From Haploplasma axanthum (GTDB lineage: Bacteria > Bacillota_I > Bacilli_A > Acholeplasmatales > Acholeplasmataceae): a stretch of 64,000 nucleotides of DNA. Of this stretch, positions 51,532-60,377 are shown in pieces (positions within the stretch are counted from its first letter, which is position 1; every line of letters begins with the position of its first letter). Below the pieces are notes generated by a model, which was given only the letters and a program-made list of their open reading frames with translations, was not told where the DNA came from and made no database searches. Location of the stretch: the NCBI RefSeq assembly GCF_900660745.1, contig NZ_LR215048.1, forward strand, positions 1,736,001-1,800,000. The letters run 5' to 3'. The position numbers and the translations under genes are program-made.

Positions 51532-52704
51532 TCAAATAACGAATCCCAATATTGCAGCTAAGAGCACAATTAGAGGAGCAGGCACTTTTTTACTTATTAA
51601 TAATAAAGCGCCAATAATGACCACCCCATATACAGCAAAGCCAACGGGTAGTTTTATAGTTTGATTAATCGCTGTCATTAAAATTAGACTTGCTGCTGTT
51701 ACACTAACACCTGACAAAAAATATCTAATCTTCTTAATTTTACGACTTTTTTTCCAAAGCGGAAAAATAAAGAAAACTAATAAAAGTCCAGGCAGAAAAA
51801 TACTAATCCCACCGATTAAACCGGCTAGAAATGCAAAATTAGAATTTGCAAATGATCTTGAGGAAATAAAGGCAGCAAAACTAAAAAGTGGTCCAGGTAC
51901 CGCTTGATCAATAGCGTATCCTGATAAAAAATCATTTAATGATATCAAGGATTGCGCTTGAACTAAATCTTGAATCATGAGTGGTATAACAATTTGTCCT
52001 CCACCAATCACGGAATAACCATATCGGTAAAATGATGTGAATAAAATAACTAGATTGCTATTAAACCAAATTCTAAGGCCTTCATTTAAAATCGCGATGC
52101 CAATTACAACTATTAAAATTAGCCATTTTGGCTTTAGTTTGTCGTCTATTATAGTTTGTTCTTTACGATGTGGCATTAAATAGATGCTCCCTCCTAAAAG
52201 AAGCATGATTGGAACGATCCACATCGAATATCCTACCAACAGTATGCCTAAGATAAGCATTAATGCATAGACTATCCAATCTTTAAGTTTCTTTAAAACC
52301 TTTTTCGATAATGAATACGCAGCATAAATGATAAAAGATACGGCAATTGCTGGTAAATAAGTCATGATGGGTCTCCATCCTTCATGACCACTGATAACAG
52401 TAAAGAAAACACCAATCAAACTCATAATGATAATTGCTGGAAACGCCCAGACAAGAAACGTTAAGATGGCTAAAACAGGTCCGCCAACATGATATCCAAT
52501 TGATGTAACAGTTTGGGTACTACTTGGTCCAGGAATAATCGCATATAATCCAATTTTTTCTGTTAGTTCTTCTTCCGTTATATACTTTCTTTTTTGAACC
52601 AGTAATGATGAGAAAATACCGTAATGTGCCTCAGGTCCACCATACGAACCAAGTGACGCAAGAAAAACATCCCATAAAAACACATGCCATTTAACCTTGC
52701 CCAT
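51532..52704 (-). CDS. Chromate transporter family protein (CHR, two-domain form)
   Basis: 390 aa from the ATG at 52704. There are about ten to twelve helices in two homologous halves, with LYAIIPGPSSTQTVTSIGYH and IDQAVPGPLFSFAAFISS as the repeated GPxxT/GPxF motifs and VGGPVLAILTFLVWAFPAII. CHR proteins export chromate. Here the gene directly follows arsC, where an arsenite exporter would normally stand, so its true substrate deserves testing. A GGAGACC within the arsC end serves as the ribosome site. Confidence 0.85.
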   Translation of the reverse strand: MGKVKWHVFLWDVFLASLGSYGGPEAHYGIFSSLLVQKRKYITEEELTEKIGLYAIIPGPSSTQTVTSIGYHVGGPVLAILTFLVWAFPAIIIMSLIGVFFTVISGHEGWRPIMTYLPAIAVSFIIYAAYSLSKKVLKKLKDWIVYALMLILGILLVGYSMWIVPIMLLLGGSIYLMPHRKEQTIIDDKLKPKWLILIVVIGIAILNEGLRIWFNSNLVILFTSFYRYGYSVIGGGQIVIPLMIQDLVQAQSLISLNDFLSGYAIDQAVPGPLFSFAAFISSRSFANSNFAFLAGLIGGISIFLPGLLLVFFIFPLWKKSRKIKKIRYFLSGVSVTAASLILMTAINQTIKLPVGFAVYGVVIIGALLLISKKVPAPLIVLLAAILGFVI

Positions 52705-52705
52705 T

Positions 52706-53104
52706 TTATTTAAGGTCTCCTGATTCAATTCTTTCTAATAACTGTGTAACCTTTTCTTTAATTAGGTCTCTTGTTAATCTAAATGCTTCAATTGATTTTC
52801 CTGAAGGATCATCTAATCCCCAATCTTCACGATGTTCATTAGGTATCCAAGGACATTCAGCACCACATCCCATAGTAATTAAAATATCTGGCACAGGGAT
52901 ATCACCAAGTTGTTTTGAATATTGCCCTTGAAGATCAATTCCTATTTCCTTCATCACTTCAACTGCAAGTGGTTTAATTTCATGATATTCTTCTGTTCCT
53001 GCTGAATATACATCGATAATTCCCTTACCTAATTTCCTGGCCCATCCTTCTGCCATTTGACTACGACACGAATTATGAACACAAACAAATGCAACTTTCT
53101 TCAT
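52706..53104 (-). CDS. arsC: Arsenate reductase (thioredoxin-coupled, LMW-PTP fold)
   Basis: 132 aa from the ATG at 53104. P-loop VAFVCVHNSCRSQMAEGWAR (CX5R) and the redox pair in ITMGCGAECPWIP give the three cysteines of Staphylococcus-type ArsC, and EDWGLDDPSGKS the catalytic Asp loop. It reduces arsenate to arsenite with thioredoxin. It lies between arsR and the chromate-transporter-like gene; no arsB or acr3 is in the window. Confidence 0.92.
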   Translation of the reverse strand: MKKVAFVCVHNSCRSQMAEGWARKLGKGIIDVYSAGTEEYHEIKPLAVEVMKEIGIDLQGQYSKQLGDIPVPDILITMGCGAECPWIPNEHREDWGLDDPSGKSIEAFRLTRDLIKEKVTQLLERIESGDLK

Positions 53105-53172
53105 ATATTCCTCCACTATTATTTTTCACATATTGCATGATTAAAAAAATCATGATTTGCCTTTGGCTTTAA

Positions 53173-53439
53173 TTAATATTTAAATTCTTCATAAAAAGCG
53201 TTTAGGAACTTGTAATTCAATTCGTAATAAACCCATGTTCCTTTTTTGCTTGCATGAATAATTTGGTTTTTTTCCAATAATTTTAAATGGTATGATAATG
53301 TTGGTTGTGTAATGCTAAATGATTCAAGTAAATGACATACACAACGTGCACCATAAGATAAAATATCAATGATTTCAATCCGAATTGGATCACCTAAAAC
53401 TTTATGGATTTGCGCCATTTCTTGATATTGTTTTCTCAT
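53173..53439 (-). CDS. ArsR-family metalloregulator
   Basis: 88 aa winged helix: HKVLGDPIRIEIIDILSYGA, then RCVCHLLESFSITQPTLSYH, LKLLEKNQIIHASKKGTWVY. The CVC pair in the recognition-helix region is the classic As(III)/Sb(III) site of ArsR. SD GAGGGAG precedes the ATG and an operator-like palindrome lies 16 bp upstream. Together with arsC and the CHR gene it forms an arsenic-type operon. Confidence 0.92.
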   Translation of the reverse strand: MRKQYQEMAQIHKVLGDPIRIEIIDILSYGARCVCHLLESFSITQPTLSYHLKLLEKNQIIHASKKGTWVYYELNYKFLNAFYEEFKY

Positions 53440-53605: not shown

Positions 53606-53839
53606 TTAAAGATCCTTAACTTCGGTTTTTTTAACGCCATATCCTAAATTAGAAATGGCACTTTCAATGCTTTTAATAGAAACAGTTTCATCGTCATATT
53701 CGAGTTTTACTTTACTTGAATTAAACATAACGTTAACACTATCTTGATTAACACCATTTAAACCCTTAATAGCACGATTAATCTTTTGTAAACATGATGG
53801 ACATGTTAATGTTTCTAATTGAATTATCGCTTTTTTCAT
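53606..53839 (-). CDS. Heavy-metal-associated domain protein (CopZ-like metallochaperone)
   Basis: 77 aa HMA fold: AIIQLETLTCPSCLQKINRA (CxxC metal site), GVNQDSVNVMFNSSKVKLEY and ESAISNLGYGVKKTEV. It probably hands a soft metal to the neighbouring P-type ATPase. IS110 element D now lies 12 bp upstream of its ATG. The reconstructed empty site reads AAAGGAG-8-ATG with the ATPase stop overlapping the start (TAATG), so the native ribosome site and coupling have been broken. Confidence 0.88.
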   Translation of the reverse strand: MKKAIIQLETLTCPSCLQKINRAIKGLNGVNQDSVNVMFNSSKVKLEYDDETVSIKSIESAISNLGYGVKKTEVKDL

Positions 53840-53934: not shown

Positions 53935-54082
53935 ATGATGATATCACAGACTAGTTTTCTTAACTCCTTACAGCATCTATGACTGGTTGAGAAAGGATAT
54001 AGCTGTGACTTTAATTAAATATGGTTATGAGTTGGATACGGCATTTGACTGGTCATTTCCTATTAGGTTACATTCATTAAAG
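53935..54082 (+). ncRNA. Putative IS110 bridge RNA D
   Basis: TATAAT at 53923-53928. Target loop: TCACAG/CTGTGA (53944-53949/54003-54008) around CAG-CATCTATGA-CTG type hairpin. Donor loop: CTTTAAT/ATTAAAG (54009-54015/54076-54082) around CGG-CATTTGA-CTG. Guides: GAGAAAGGA (53989-53997) is complementary to CTTTCTC at 55429-55435 and to all nine bases of the reconstructed target TCCTTTCTC. CTCCTT (53964-53969) matches the left flank CTCCT (53848-53852). AGTTGG (54030-54035) equals the right end at 55423-55428. TATTAGG (54061-54067) is complementary to the left end CCTAATA (53850-53856). Confidence 0.82.
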
Positions 54083-54130
54083 CCCACAGTACTAAGCTTG
54101 TATATCAATCATAGAAAGGCAGGTTTTATT

Positions 54131-55312
54131 ATGATTTTAGTAGGTATTGATGTCGCCTCAATTAAAAATGACATCGTTATCACCAATCATTTAGGTGAAG
54201 TTTTTAATAAACATTTTACCATTGAAAATTCACGATTAGGATATAAAAAACTCCTTAGCGAAATTTCATTGGCTAAAGAGTTCTTCAAAGATTCTAATGT
54301 GCGTATAGGGCTTGAATCAACTGGACATTATAGTAGAAATATTCTACACTTTTTAATCCTCGAGGGATACAATGTTATGTTCATTAATCCATTATTAACC
54401 AATATGGACCGTAAGGCTTCTTCAGTTCGTAAAACGAAGACTGATTCTATTGATGCCAAGGCCATTTGTATGTTTCTTATTAGAAATCAAAATGATTTCA
54501 AACCCTATACATTATTATCATACCATATTGATGAACTAAAAATATTAGTTAGACAAAGAAAATCTTTAAAAAAACAATTAAATAAGACTTCCAATCAACT
54601 TAAAGCTTATATTGATCAAGCTTTCCCTGAGTACCATAAAATCTTTAAGAATACTCTTTCTAACGCTTCATTAACTCTTTTAGAGTCTTACGCTTCTCTA
54701 TCCGAGTTAAAACGTGTTAGAACTAACACTTTAACTGAACTTCTAAAGAAATCTTCAAAAGGTAGACATGGTCTAACTAAGGCTGAAGTGATTAAGGAAT
54801 TTGTTAAAGCATCTATTGGCATTGATAGCGAATCTCTTTCACTATCAATTAAACAATCTGTTCAAACAATTAAAAGTATTGAACTTCAAGTAAGTCAAAT
54901 TAATGATTTACTAGAACATCATCTCAACCAATCTAAAACAACACTTCTAACGATTCCTGGTATTGGTATTCAAACTGGTGCCATTATTTTAGCTGAGATT
55001 GGTGATATTAATCGTTTCAAGTCTGATGATGCCTTACTAGCTTTCGCTGGTCTTGACCCTTCTGTTTATCAATCTGGTAAGTATGAAGGCAGTTTTAAAA
55101 TCTCTAAGCGTGGCTCATCCATCCTTAGATGGGCTATATTTCAAGCTGCAAAAATAACTGTTATGCATGACCCTATTTTTAATGCTTATTTTCTAAAGAA
55201 AAAATCTCAAGGTAAGCATTATTTAACGATTATTGGTCACGTTACTAAAAAGTTACTTAGAGTCATTCGTTCTATTTTAAAGAACAATAGTGTTTATACT
55301 GTTTCTCATTAA
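54131..55312 (+). CDS. IS110-family transposase D
   Basis: 393 aa from the ATG at 54131 (AAAGGCAGG upstream). An open frame reaching back to 53987 overlaps the RNA leader and does not look like protein. DEDD domain: MILVGIDVASIKNDIVITNH, VRIGLESTGHYSRNI, KTDSIDAKAICMF. C-terminal: IPGIGIQTGAIILAEIGDI, LAFAGLDPSVYQSGKY, KRGSSILRWAI. It is the most distant of the four transposases. Confidence 0.93.
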   Translation: MILVGIDVASIKNDIVITNHLGEVFNKHFTIENSRLGYKKLLSEISLAKEFFKDSNVRIGLESTGHYSRNILHFLILEGYNVMFINPLLTNMDRKASSVRKTKTDSIDAKAICMFLIRNQNDFKPYTLLSYHIDELKILVRQRKSLKKQLNKTSNQLKAYIDQAFPEYHKIFKNTLSNASLTLLESYASLSELKRVRTNTLTELLKKSSKGRHGLTKAEVIKEFVKASIGIDSESLSLSIKQSVQTIKSIELQVSQINDLLEHHLNQSKTTLLTIPGIGIQTGAIILAEIGDINRFKSDDALLAFAGLDPSVYQSGKYEGSFKISKRGSSILRWAIFQAAKITVMHDPIFNAYFLKKKSQGKHYLTIIGHVTKKLLRVIRSILKNNSVYTVSH

Positions 55313-55413: not shown

Positions 55414-57294
55414 TCATCTAATAGTTGGCTTTCTCTTATATTTTAGTAATCTCATTCCATTTAAAATCACAATTAGAATGCTTGCCTCATGAACCAACAT
55501 TCCTATTGACATATTCATCCATTCACTAAACAATAAACTGATGATTAACCATAAAACGACACCAATTGCTATCCCTATATTTTGTTTCATATTGCGAGCG
55601 GTTGCTTTGGCAAGTCCAAAAGCATGAGGTAATTTTGAAATATCCGAATTCATTAAAACAACATCGCCTGTTTCAATCGCAACATCGGTTCCGTTTCCCA
55701 TTGCAATCCCCACTTGAGCAGTTGCAAGTGAAGGACTGTCATTGATACCATCACCAACAAAAGCAACAATCTTATGCTCCCTTTGTAATTTTTTGATAAA
55801 TGCTTGTTTATCTTCTGGTAACATGTTGCCATATGCTTCAGTCATTCCTAATTCTTTGGAAACCAAACCAACAGTGCCCTGATTATCTCCTGATAAAATG
55901 ATGAGATTTTTAGCACCTTGCTTTCTTAACTGATCTAATTGTTTTTTAACATCCGGTCTAATTTGATCTTTAATACACATTAATAGTTCTAATTCATTAT
56001 CAACTGCTGTTAAAACAATCGAGTGTCCCTTTAATTCAAAATTCTTAATATCTTCTAACATCTTTTGATCAAGTTCGATATGTTCATCTATCATTAATTT
56101 CTGATTGCCTACAACAATTCTTATACCTTCAATATCGGCAATGATACCACCACCTTTAACAACTTCGTTTTTTAAAACACGATAATTCGTTGCAGGTTCT
56201 CCAATATAATCTAAAATTGCTTTAGCAAGTGGATGAAGCGATTCTTTTTCAATACTGTATAAGTAACCTAGTGTTTTTTTTAAATCAGCTCCATAATATT
56301 CAACACTTGAAACGACAGGTTTTCCAATAGTTAGTGTCCCTGTTTTATCAAATACAATTGTATCTATTTTACTAAAATCATGGATAACTTCACTCCCCTT
56401 TAATAAGATACCTTGTTTTGCACCATTACCAATACCGGCAACATTTGAAACTGGAACGCCAATCACTAAGGCACCAGGACATCCTAGCACTAAAATCGTT
56501 ATGGCCAGTTCAATATCTTGCCAAATAAGATAAACAATGATCGCTAAAACTAACACGAGTGGCGTATAAAAAGTTGAAAATTTATCAATGAAGCGTTCTG
56601 CTTCTGATTTAGAATCTTGCGCCGATTCAACCAGTTCAATAATTTTACCGAAGGTCGTATCTTCCCCTACTTTTTCAGCAATAATGTGTAATGTTCCATT
56701 TTCTAAAATGGTCCCAGCAAAGACATGATCGCTTTGCTTTTTATTAACTGGAACACTTTCACCCGTAATGCTTGCTTCATCGATTGATCCTTCTCCTTCA
56801 ATAACTTTACCATCAACTGGTACTTTTGATCCCGTTTTCACCTGTAAGAAATCACCAACTTCGACCAAATTAATGCTTACTTCTTGATACATGCCATCAC
56901 TCATTTTTTTAAGTGCTGTTTCTGGTGCCATTTCAGTTAATTCTTTGATTGCACTTCGTGTTTTATTAAGTGTCTTTTTCTCCAAATAACTTCCAAATAA
57001 GAACAGAAACGTAACAATCGCAGACTCTTCATAGTTCTTAATCACAAAAGCACCAATCACTGCGATTGTAACCAAAACATCAATACTAATAACTTTCACT
57101 CTGATCGATTGATAAGCTTGTATTGCGATTGGAATGATACCTATAATAGATGCAATCATTAATGCAATTTGAGATAATTTTTCAAGCCCAAGTAGATAAT
57201 GACCGCTAAAAGCAATAACAATTAAGAATAAACTTAAAAATGCGATTTGATTTTTATAATTAAGAATTGTTTTTTGTATGTTCATTTTACTCAT
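55414..57294 (-). CDS. P1B-type heavy-metal ATPase with CPG membrane motif (C-terminus altered by IS110 D)
   Basis: About 626 aa from the ATG at 57294 (AGAGGTGA upstream). Transmembrane motif TILVLGCPGALVIGVPV (CPG), phosphorylation loop IDTIVFDKTGTLTIGKP, actuator GEGSIDEASITGESVPV, HP in ESLHPLAKAI, and GDGINDSPSLATAQVG. There is no N-terminal HMA domain; a separate CopZ-like protein is next. CPG replaces the usual CPC/SPC, so metal choice is open. The last residues PTIR come from the IS110 element; before insertion it would have ended KYKRKEQN with the stop overlapping copZ's ATG. Fnr-type control is suggested upstream. Confidence 0.88.
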   Translation of the reverse strand: MSKMNIQKTILNYKNQIAFLSLFLIVIAFSGHYLLGLEKLSQIALMIASIIGIIPIAIQAYQSIRVKVISIDVLVTIAVIGAFVIKNYEESAIVTFLFLFGSYLEKKTLNKTRSAIKELTEMAPETALKKMSDGMYQEVSINLVEVGDFLQVKTGSKVPVDGKVIEGEGSIDEASITGESVPVNKKQSDHVFAGTILENGTLHIIAEKVGEDTTFGKIIELVESAQDSKSEAERFIDKFSTFYTPLVLVLAIIVYLIWQDIELAITILVLGCPGALVIGVPVSNVAGIGNGAKQGILLKGSEVIHDFSKIDTIVFDKTGTLTIGKPVVSSVEYYGADLKKTLGYLYSIEKESLHPLAKAILDYIGEPATNYRVLKNEVVKGGGIIADIEGIRIVVGNQKLMIDEHIELDQKMLEDIKNFELKGHSIVLTAVDNELELLMCIKDQIRPDVKKQLDQLRKQGAKNLIILSGDNQGTVGLVSKELGMTEAYGNMLPEDKQAFIKKLQREHKIVAFVGDGINDSPSLATAQVGIAMGNGTDVAIETGDVVLMNSDISKLPHAFGLAKATARNMKQNIGIAIGVVLWLIISLLFSEWMNMSIGMLVHEASILIVILNGMRLLKYKRKPTIR

Positions 57295-57321: not shown

Positions 57322-57327
57322 ATTATA
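57322..57327 (-). promoter_or_regulatory. -10 box of the CPG-type ATPase gene
   Basis: TATAAT on the minus strand with a predicted start near 57315. The -35 position is only T-rich, as expected for an activator-dependent promoter. Confidence 0.65.
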
Positions 57328-57344
57328 GCAACTCAAAACACAAA

Positions 57345-57368
57345 AAAAATTGACCTAGGTCAATTTTT
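57345..57368. promoter_or_regulatory. Crp/Fnr-type operator (perfect palindrome), centred near -41.5
   Basis: A perfect 24-bp palindrome with core TTGACCTAGGTCAA flanked by A5 and T5. Its centre (between 57356 and 57357) is about 41.5 bp upstream of the predicted start, the classic class II activator position. The adjacent Crp/Fnr protein has an ETLSR recognition helix of the Fnr kind, which prefers TTGA half-sites. The hairpin could also act as a terminator for the regulator gene. Confidence 0.75.
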
Positions 57369-57392
57369 CAAATCTAAATTATTATTTTTTTA

Positions 57393-58067
57393 TTATTCGT
57401 TTGCAAATCTTTTTAAATTATCATGATTAATAATTTTTATCGTTCTTTGTCCTTCTAATTCAATTAAATTGCTTTTTTTAAGTTCCGCTAGATTTCTACT
57501 TAAAGTTTCACTACTCATTCCCAGTATTGAAGCCCAATCAGACTTTGAAAAAGGAAGTGTAAAGATATGATTACCCTTACTTAGTTTTAGTATTGAAGCA
57601 ACAATTCTTTTTTCTGACAAATCTAAATTGTAACTTTCGATTTTATTGTCACTTTCTGATAACCGCGTTGAAAGTTCACTTAGCATTCTAATCCCAATTT
57701 GGGGTTTATCCATAATGTACTCTTTTAACTTACTACCTTCTAACATGCAAACTGCGCTATCTTCTAAAGATACTGCAAAGTTGTTAGCTTTTATATTTGT
57801 AAAAAGTAATTCCTCACCTAAAAAATCCCCTGGATTTAATATCCTTATAACCTGTTCATTACCGTCATCATTATATCTAGCAATTTTTATTTTGCCTTGA
57901 TGAACAACATATAAAGCAGCGCCTGTATCACCCATATGATATAAAAAATCCCCTTTTAAAAGCCTTTTGACACGTATCAAATTACTTATATCTGCTTGTT
58001 CATTTTCATTTAAGTGATTAAAGATCGGCACTTTAAACAAACAAGATTTTTCATGTTTTGATAACAC
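57393..58067 (-). CDS. Crp/Fnr-family transcriptional regulator
   Basis: 224 aa. The cyclic-nucleotide-binding-like barrel (about 15-130: KGDFLYHMGDTGAALYVVHQ, VIRILNPGDFLGEELLF) is followed by the HTH with FSKSDWASILGMSSETLSRN. The ETLSR motif matches Fnr-type DNA recognition. There is only one N-terminal Cys (Cys9) and one later Cys, so a 4Fe-4S cluster of the Fnr kind is unlikely; a heme, thiol or other signal is possible. It lies between a Fur-family gene (26-bp gap) and the ATPase it probably activates. Confidence 0.88.
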   Translation of the reverse strand: MLSKHEKSCLFKVPIFNHLNENEQADISNLIRVKRLLKGDFLYHMGDTGAALYVVHQGKIKIARYNDDGNEQVIRILNPGDFLGEELLFTNIKANNFAVSLEDSAVCMLEGSKLKEYIMDKPQIGIRMLSELSTRLSESDNKIESYNLDLSEKRIVASILKLSKGNHIFTLPFSKSDWASILGMSSETLSRNLAELKKSNLIELEGQRTIKIINHDNLKRFANE

Positions 58068-58092: not shown

Positions 58093-58473
58093 TCATTTAT
58101 GATCTTTCTTATCATTTAAAACACCTTCAAAAATAATCGAATGCGATTCAACTTTCCCGCCGAATATTTTTTCAACTAATCTATCTAATTCTTCTTGATA
58201 CTCAATATTAAGATCATATATTTTCTTAGTTTCTTTATCGTAAAAGTGGTAATGTTCACTTTTATTCTTATCATAAATGTACCCTAATTCCGGATGTCTC
58301 ACACGATTAATATATCCCGCAGTAAAAAGGGCATTTAAATTTCTATATATCGTTGCTATCCCAATTTTTAAGTTTTGGTTTTTTAATTCAATAAGTATTT
58401 CTTCTGCCGTCATATGTCCATCTGAAGATAAAATTAAATCATATATTTGTTGACCTTGTTTGGTTATTTTCAT
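58093..58473 (-). CDS. Fur-family metalloregulator
   Basis: 126 aa from the ATG at 58473. Winged helix: MTAEEILIELKNQNLKIGIA, TIYRNLNALFTAGYINRVRH. Metal region: YDKNKSEHYHFYDKETKKIY gives the HYHF His ligands, and the tail has the SHSIIFEGV that supplies another His. The C-terminal Cys pairs of the structural zinc site are absent. Fur, PerR or Zur type cannot be told apart. It follows the SPC-type ATPase gene by 41 bp. Confidence 0.88.
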   Translation of the reverse strand: MKITKQGQQIYDLILSSDGHMTAEEILIELKNQNLKIGIATIYRNLNALFTAGYINRVRHPELGYIYDKNKSEHYHFYDKETKKIYDLNIEYQEELDRLVEKIFGGKVESHSIIFEGVLNDKKDHK

Positions 58474-58513
58474 CATATCACCCACTTATATTATATACCA
58501 AAACATCATTATT

Positions 58514-60340
58514 TTACTGCTTTTTAATTGATAACATTCTAAGGCCATTTAAAATGACTAAAATTGTACTACCTTCGTGAAACACCACACCAAGAGGAAG
58601 TTTGACGATACCAAAAATATTCATAAAAATTAAGGCTATAATAACTGTAATTGAAAATATAATATTTTGTGTGTAAATACTTTTGGCTTTTTTTGATAAT
58701 TTAATGATTTCGGGTATTTTTTCTATGTTATTATTCATTAAAACGATATCAGCGGTTTCTAACGCCACATCGCTTCCAGAACCCATGGCGATACCGACAT
58801 CAGCTACTGTAAGCGACGGCCCATCATTAATGCCATCACCAATCATTGCTACCATCCCATTTGTTTTTGCTTTTCTAATCTCTTTAACCTTATCTTCAGG
58901 CAAACAGTTGGCAATCACGCGGTCAATGCCTATATTTTTTGCGATGCTATTTGCATTAAATTGATTATCTCCTGTTAACATGATTGTTTCTATATATATA
59001 CCTTGCATCTTTTTAATCGTACTACCTACATTTTCTCTAATTTTATCACTAAATGAAATAATACCAATCAACGCATCGTTTAGAGTGATTTCAGATGTTG
59101 TATAACCTTTTTCCTGCTGCTCTTTAATCCGGATGTCATTAAAGTTTGTTTTACCCACAAAGTATTCTTGATTATCAATAACAGATGCCATACCTCGACC
59201 TTTTTGTTCAATGGTTTTGAGTTCCATGTTTTTAATTAATATCTTATCTTCCAAATAAGCAACAATAGATTTTGCAAGTGGATGATTGGATTGCTTTTCG
59301 ATATGATATATATATGATAATATTTGGTCTTTATTTGGGGCATACAAATCTATTGAAATAACGTTAGGATAACCGGCAGTAATTGTGCCTGTTTTGTCAA
59401 AAAAAATTGTTTTAACATTGGACAGTTTTTGGATGGCATTAGCACCTTTAATTAGAACACCTTCTTTCGTTGCTCTACTCATTGTTGAAAGCATCACCGG
59501 TGAAACTGAGGCAACTAAAGCACAAGGGCTTGCCACAACAAGCAAAACAATCCCTTTATAAAACGATGTATTAAAATCCCAAATCTTAAAAAACGGTGGT
59601 AAGAACATCATTAAGACGGCGGCTATTAAAATGACATACACATAATATTTTTCAAATTTTTCGATACCAATTTCTGTTTTTGTTTGTTCACTTTGAGCCT
59701 TTTGTATAAAATCAATAATTTTTTGCATTGAAGAGTCTTTTGCTGAGGAACTGACCTTAACATAAATGGCCGAAGCTTGATTAATTGTTCCTGAAAGAAC
59801 CGTGCTATTTATTTCTTTAGCTACTGGCATATATTCCCCAGTAATCATTGACTCATCAATGACCGTTGAACCTTTAACAATGATACCATCTGCTGGAACT
59901 TGCTGACCGACTTTTACTAACACGATATCGCTAATGATTAAGTCATTGATATTCACAATCATTTCTCTATCATCTTGAATTTTAATCGCTGTTTCCGGAA
60001 TTAACTTCATGAGAGACTCTAATGCATCACTTGATTTATTAAGGACATATTCTTCTAACACACCACTTAAAGCAAATATAAATATTAATACTGAGCCTTC
60101 TTGATAATTACCAATAAAAAACGCAGCTAAAGCAGACAATATCATGAGAAATTCGACATTTAATGATTTTTCTTCAATTGTTTTTTTAACGCCTTCAACA
60201 GCTTTTGATCTTCCACCTATGATAAAAGCTAAACTCCAAAAAATAATTTCAATAATTTCATCTTTTACAAAATAAGCAATAGCCATGAATACAACAGAAA
60301 TAATGAGACTCATCAAATCAATTTTTAATTTTCTTTTCAT
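58514..60340 (-). CDS. P1B-4-type metal ATPase (SPC motif), PfeT/ZosA-like
   Basis: 608 aa. Membrane motif VLLVVASPCALVASVSPV (SPC, the P1B-4 type exporting Fe(II), Co or Zn), phosphorylation loop VKTIFFDKTGTITAGYP, actuator GSTVIDESMITGEYMPV, HP in KQSNHPLAKSI and GDGINDGPSLTVADVG. There is no metal-binding N-domain. A Fur-like box overlaps the promoter region and a Fur-family gene follows, so iron or peroxide-linked efflux, as for PfeT in Bacillus, is the best guess. Confidence 0.88.
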   Translation of the reverse strand: MKRKLKIDLMSLIISVVFMAIAYFVKDEIIEIIFWSLAFIIGGRSKAVEGVKKTIEEKSLNVEFLMILSALAAFFIGNYQEGSVLIFIFALSGVLEEYVLNKSSDALESLMKLIPETAIKIQDDREMIVNINDLIISDIVLVKVGQQVPADGIIVKGSTVIDESMITGEYMPVAKEINSTVLSGTINQASAIYVKVSSSAKDSSMQKIIDFIQKAQSEQTKTEIGIEKFEKYYVYVILIAAVLMMFLPPFFKIWDFNTSFYKGIVLLVVASPCALVASVSPVMLSTMSRATKEGVLIKGANAIQKLSNVKTIFFDKTGTITAGYPNVISIDLYAPNKDQILSYIYHIEKQSNHPLAKSIVAYLEDKILIKNMELKTIEQKGRGMASVIDNQEYFVGKTNFNDIRIKEQQEKGYTTSEITLNDALIGIISFSDKIRENVGSTIKKMQGIYIETIMLTGDNQFNANSIAKNIGIDRVIANCLPEDKVKEIRKAKTNGMVAMIGDGINDGPSLTVADVGIAMGSGSDVALETADIVLMNNNIEKIPEIIKLSKKAKSIYTQNIIFSITVIIALIFMNIFGIVKLPLGVVFHEGSTILVILNGLRMLSIKKQ

Positions 60341-60356
60341 AACGCATCTCCATATA

Positions 60357-60377
60357 TGATAATAATAACGATTATCA
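60357..60377. promoter_or_regulatory. Fur-like box upstream of the SPC-type ATPase
   Basis: TGATAAT-AATAACG-ATTATCA, 17 bp upstream of the ATG. Read on the minus strand it also contains a 7-1-7 site (TGATAAT-C-GTTATTA), the usual Fur/PerR pattern. Confidence 0.7.

Follow-up and report, generated by a model that had tools for sequence, protein, structure and literature searches.

A predicted class II Crp/Fnr-activated promoter of a CPG-type metal ATPase in Haploplasma axanthum and its recurrence with a two-cysteine regulator

Two-cysteine regulators, FNR-type promoters and P1B pumps

P1B-type ATPases are sorted into metal subgroups by a membrane motif, the described ones being CPC, SPC, CPH and TPC. 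Gram-positive bacteria are known to have FNR-like proteins with two cysteines, and the way in which these proteins sense has been called controversial (PMC5039431). These Flp proteins (FLP of L. casei, FlpA and FlpB of L. lactis, FlpS of S. suis) share the Crp/Fnr architecture, with two cysteines replacing the FNR set (PMC5039431). In the case of FlpS, the loss of the protein brings a response of a Dps-like gene, although the reported role is that of an activator of arginine deiminase genes and not of a metal pump. The L. casei FLP is said to work as a disulfide switch, as Gostick and colleagues proposed in 1998, and a link with zinc was reportedly made for L. lactis Flp by Scott in 2000.

A promoter with the FNR dyad at −41.5 (FF-41.5) is a standard class II FNR promoter (PMC4505428), and in E. 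coli such promoters show TTGA/TCAA arms recognised by a protein with an ETxSR helix and a [4Fe-4S] cluster held by four cysteines. A similar operator, wyTTGACnnnnGTCAArw, was predicted for HcpR1, the nitrogen-oxide regulator of anaerobes, which has S/P-E as specificity residues (PMC1274295). The locus of Haploplasma axanthum described here shares the −41.5 dyad, the arms and the helix with the E. coli promoters, but its regulator has two cysteines instead of four. Likewise, its palindrome core conforms to the HcpR1-type operator TTGACnnnnGTCAA, but the gene that follows encodes a metal ATPase and not hcp or frdX, whose regulation is not found at this locus. The pump belongs with ZntA, CopA and the P1B-4 types to the heavy-metal P-type ATPases, and differs from them in forming a group with CPG and HE[A/L/F]S motifs, as against CPC, or SPC with HEGST. 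The putative kinship of the regulator with Flp is drawn from the published description of the two cysteines. On P1B ATPases of the CPG type and on metal ATPases under Crp/Fnr control, a literature search returned nothing relevant, which is weak evidence of novelty given that most subscription papers were outside its reach. What is new here is the conservation of the site, the one-to-one pairing of regulator and pump, the invariance of the two cysteines and the group of CPG pumps.

A palindrome at −41.5 between regulator and pump

The window, that is, the whole stretch of 64,000 nucleotides analysed, has as its longest perfect palindrome the 24-bp AAAAATTGACCTAGGTCAATTTTT (57345-57368, identical on both strands), which we predict to be the operator of a Crp/Fnr-type regulator; palindromes of at least 24 bp are expected 0.03 times, and the runner-up measures 18 bp. 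Its core, TTGACCTAGGTCAA (57350-57363), lies 22 nt from a −10 hexamer, TATAAT, on the minus strand (57327-57322). Since the transcription start, placed from this hexamer, would fall 7 nt past it at about 57315, the centre of the palindrome comes to −41.5. A scan with the sigma-70 consensus lists no −35/−10 pair at the ATPase promoter, and TATAAT has no −35 box before it. In this regard, the original prediction of a perfect 24-bp palindrome centred at −41.5 of a promoter lacking the −35 box described the sequence correctly, and the three elements of class II anatomy (dyad at −41.5, −10 box, no −35 box) are all present, with the start site deduced from the hexamer. A Shine-Dalgarno sequence, GAGGTG (57303-57298, minus strand), precedes the ATG start codon at 57294; the listed ATPase reading frame begins at a TTG at 57336, within the promoter.

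The genes flanking the site lie on the minus strand, in the order SPC-type P1B ATPase, Fur/PerR-like gene, Crp/Fnr regulator, palindrome and CPG-motif P1B ATPase. The last one (55414-57294; TIGR01525, 3.8e-169) has CPG and HEAS membrane motifs and belongs to the P1B-type heavy-metal ATPases by its E1-E2 ATPase domain, its DKTGT core and a match above the curated cut-off of the heavy-metal ATPase profile. Its closest solved relatives are ZntA and CopA, and its CPG/HEAS combination matches no described metal subgroup (CPC, SPC, CPH, TPC), so that a metal is not assignable from the motif. The stop codon of the regulator ends at 57393, 29 bp ahead of the palindrome core. Upstream of the regulator, the Fur/PerR-like protein (58093-58485; PF01475, 3.1e-19) contains no cysteine at all and hence has no CxxC structural zinc site of the kind common in its family. 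The first gene of the cluster encodes a second P1B ATPase with SPC and HEGST motifs (58514-60340; TIGR01525; closest solved relative 7qbz), for which no class II site of the TTGAYN4RTCAA kind was found. A 7-bp inverted repeat with a 7-bp spacer (TGATAAT-AATAACG-ATTATCA, 60357-60377), a candidate Fur/PerR-type operator, adjoins the TTTACA-17-TATAAT promoter of this SPC ATPase/Fur-like/Crp-Fnr cluster.

On the other side of the pump, a CopZ-like HMA metal-binding protein with the motif LETLTCPSC is encoded on the minus strand (53606-53839). Genes of this kind come directly after the site at two other loci (L077, L078), in the same operon as the ATPase, and here an IS110-like transposase gene (53987-55312) stands between the two; the insertion may have severed the HMA gene from the promoter. 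Further along, genes for an ArsR-type regulator, an arsenate-reductase-like protein and a chromate transporter follow in a row (51532-53439), forming a metal-resistance island that adjoins the ATPases.

The regulator (57393-58067, minus strand) is a member of the Crp/Fnr superfamily, with the cNMP-binding-type domain (PF00027) and the Crp-type helix-turn-helix (PF13545) both over their gathering scores. Its structure model has a mean pLDDT of 91 and a fold matching CRP, DNR and FNR, with DNR giving the best TM-score among the top matches (0.66). Cys9 and Cys107 are its only cysteines, so it is no FNR proper with four cysteines and a [4Fe-4S] cluster; Cys107 aligns with C122 of FNR, and Cys9 lies within the N-terminal cysteine region of FNR. 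Both are invariant in all 40 full-length homologues, and are also present in three more from plasmids, as befits the two-cysteine feature of the Gram-positive Flp proteins. The description of the protein as cluster-less was accordingly right about the absence of the FNR cysteine set, but it passed over these two residues, which likely form a metal or redox switch. Many homologues, above all those encoded on plasmids, have His- or Cys-rich N-termini just before Cys9 (for example MAHHHHHSHVDC in L174), a feature that hints at metal as the signal; many chromosomal homologues lack it. The Fnr-type ETLSR part of the recognition helix (SSETLSR), noted from the start, is nearly invariant among the homologues. 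Serine and glutamate at the two specificity positions of this helix correlate with a TTGAC half-site (Rodionov et al., PMC1274295), and under this rule ETLSR fits the half-site of the palindrome. Apart from the regulator, a single cNMP-domain protein was found in the genome, and its recognition helix has RSALSR instead, which leaves the neighbouring regulator as the best candidate to bind the palindrome.

Conservation of the site with pump and regulator

The closest orthologues of the regulator (54-67% identity) all have TTGACN4GTCAA right after the regulator gene, with the −10 hexamer exactly 22 nt away. A genome-collection scan found only two relatives. A pattern search in 395 genomes of the class revealed the same arrangement ahead of more CPG ATPase operons that lack the regulator as a neighbour (L051, L062, L063, L074), so that the site stays with the ATPase even there. 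Searching for the ATPase protein locates loci independently of the site pattern, and in this way TTGAYN4RTCAA with TANNNT at 22 nt was found at 37 of 37 CPG ATPase loci, a count that comprises our own window, a locus with only part of the ATPase that still shows the site (L112) and one in which the site falls slightly within the stop-to-stop frame, beyond the first search range (L111). When plasmid copies are included, 40 of 44 distinct CPG ATPases meet the strict pattern directly, compared with about 0.01 of 44 expected from shuffled upstream regions. The four others are L111, where the site is present as just described; L126, a broken ATPase copy, upstream of which lies coding sequence of the ATPase itself; L176, from an actinomycete, which has the site with one mismatch; and L178, from a haloarchaeon, with no site upstream of its CPG ATPase. 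Nor does L122, an ATPase of the CPC type from the same genus, have a site. In the arms TTGA/TCAA does not change, the adjoining position takes C or T, and the centre is variable; TANNNT lies at 22 nt from 43 of 45 palindromes, with every other spacing between 12 and 35 occurring at most 10 times.

Regulator and pump are also distributed together. Among 150 related genomes the regulator (E ≤ 1e-15) occurs in 23, and the CPG ATPase in those same 23, leaving out of the count a 24th ATPase match devoid of the CPG motif (G116). The regulator is likewise found in 14 of 15 further genomes that have the ATPase, the exception being a genome 91% complete; as the compared genomes are related, these co-occurrences are not independent of one another. 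With 37 of 37 loci and the pairing in 23 of 150 genomes, the comparison strongly supports the claim of a class II Crp/Fnr-activated promoter.

On plasmids the module is frequent, with 370 records matched by the regulator and 460 by the ATPase, and with near equal counts of both in Enterococcus, Leuconostoc, Listeria, Ligilactobacillus, Weissella and Staphylococcus. Plasmids of Leuconostoc, Enterococcus, Listeria and Carnobacterium keep the order dps, regulator, HMA and ATPase, and each of these four genes is preceded by a separate class II site, always with the 22-nt gap. Four such sites fall within about 2.5 kb in L104, L106, L171 and L175, from plasmids of lactic acid bacteria, Enterococcus, Listeria and Carnobacterium, and sites of the same kind occur on plasmids of Lactococcus, Lactiplantibacillus and Staphylococcus. 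As read from its sites, the four-site arrangement would constitute a compact multi-promoter regulon that includes autoregulation. The site before dps recalls the Dps-like gene that responds to the loss of FlpS. Several relatives have small RIC/ScdA-like genes, always placed after the class II site and ahead of the CPG ATPase; their products of about 95 residues (L024:1238-1525, L025:863-1168, L038, L051) match only part of the iron-sulfur repair family, and no RIC partner was matched in the H. axanthum genome. The partner genes (RIC/ScdA-like, HMA, dps) vary, and their common themes are metal and oxidative damage, which do not fix the signal.

In H. axanthum itself, a search for the palindrome had been expected to give the regulon of the protein, an expectation that the genome did not bear out. 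The exact core has a single copy in 1.88 Mb, and TTGAYN4RTCAA-N22-TANNNT without mismatch occurs once, ahead of the CPG ATPase. A wider regulon was rejected, as one-mismatch matches (30/29 against 17/25 in the control) are hardly above background. The bare TTGAYN4RTCAA is found 35 times against 17 in the control, mostly as TTGAT types with no −10 hexamer at 22 nt.

A putative metal switch and competing readings

Site, spacing, pump and two-cysteine activator recur jointly in dozens of bacteria and on many plasmids, and on this comparative ground they very probably make up a real and widespread genetic switch. Promoter anatomy, the fixed 22-nt spacing and the joint conservation of site, pump and regulator all support the class II reading, to which we give a probability of about 0.88: the palindrome would be the operator of a class II Crp/Fnr promoter, through which the adjoining Flp-type regulator turns on the CPG P1B ATPase. 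A dimer of this protein would bind TTGACCTAGGTCAA at −41.5, beside RNA polymerase, and substitute for the missing −35 contact, so switching on the pump. More weakly, Cys9 and Cys107 may detect the signal, through metal binding or a thiol/disulfide change, and the pump may export a transition metal. Binding and activation by the neighbouring regulator are what we infer from these sequences.

The position of the palindrome, 29 bp past the regulator stop codon, allows a different use of it. As RNA it would form an 11-bp hairpin followed by U8 toward the regulator transcript (57342-57374, minus strand; fold z −3.4), a weak terminator as a possible second use, with only two G-C pairs in the stem. 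T-runs of at least 7 do associate with the end of a same-strand gene no more than 60 bp upstream (7/8 versus 13/41, p 0.005, ignoring ancestry). As the main function, with a merely incidental distance to TATAAT, termination is nevertheless rejected in view of the 22-nt gap kept in 43 of 45 cases and of the sites without a T-run, which are the majority, many of them also without an upstream gene; moreover, the TTGA/TCAA arms never vary, whereas terminator stems may change with compensation. We regard that reading as very improbable. A combination of both uses, in which the regulator mRNA would end at its own operator, deserves more credit and seems to us quite possible, if still on the doubtful side. 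It would accommodate the hairpin and the T-run together with the conserved class II geometry, and five relatives retain T8-T9 at the sites adjoining the regulator, as does L051, where the site follows another gene. T-rich spacers are however also seen in plasmid promoters with no gene just upstream, the stem is weak and the sites are related by descent.

A regulator of the HcpR/DNR kind, sensing NO or heme and placing the ATPase in a nitrosative-stress response, is an unlikely reading, even though HcpR1 sites have the form TTGACN4GTCAA (PMC1274295), a RIC/ScdA-like gene intervenes between site and ATPase in several relatives, and DNR heads the top structure matches. For HcpR itself the motif agrees but the target does not, as the only exact class II site of the genome precedes the ATPase: no hcp-type target is seen, RIC is unmatched in the genome, neither HcpR nor DNR is described as having two invariant cysteines, and the plasmid partners are dps and HMA. 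It is still harder to credit that the site is under the control of another protein, for instance the Fur-like neighbour, or that the Crp/Fnr protein represses from it. Proteins of this superfamily can repress too and the Fur-like gene is close by, but a −41.5 site without a −35 box has the architecture of activation, Fur-type boxes differ, a Fur-like inverted repeat sits elsewhere (60357-60377), and regulator and ATPase co-occur perfectly in 23 of 150 genomes.

Returning to activation by the two-cysteine regulator, we tentatively suggest, as a broader idea that is rather improbable as a whole, that this Crp/Fnr protein responds directly to a metal, or to thiol stress linked with metal, and is reserved for the so far unclassified CPG pumps, in a module extending from Acholeplasma-like bacteria to Lactobacillales, Staphylococcus, Clostridia and an actinomycete plasmid, with an operator that in some species also ends the transcript of the regulator. 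The one-to-one tie between regulator and pump, together with the single exact operator in the genome, makes the sensed signal approachable through the inducer of the pump. Moreover, since Gram-positive bacteria from food and clinical sources carry the module on hundreds of plasmids, many metal pumps whose annotation gives no function gain a likely regulator and operator.
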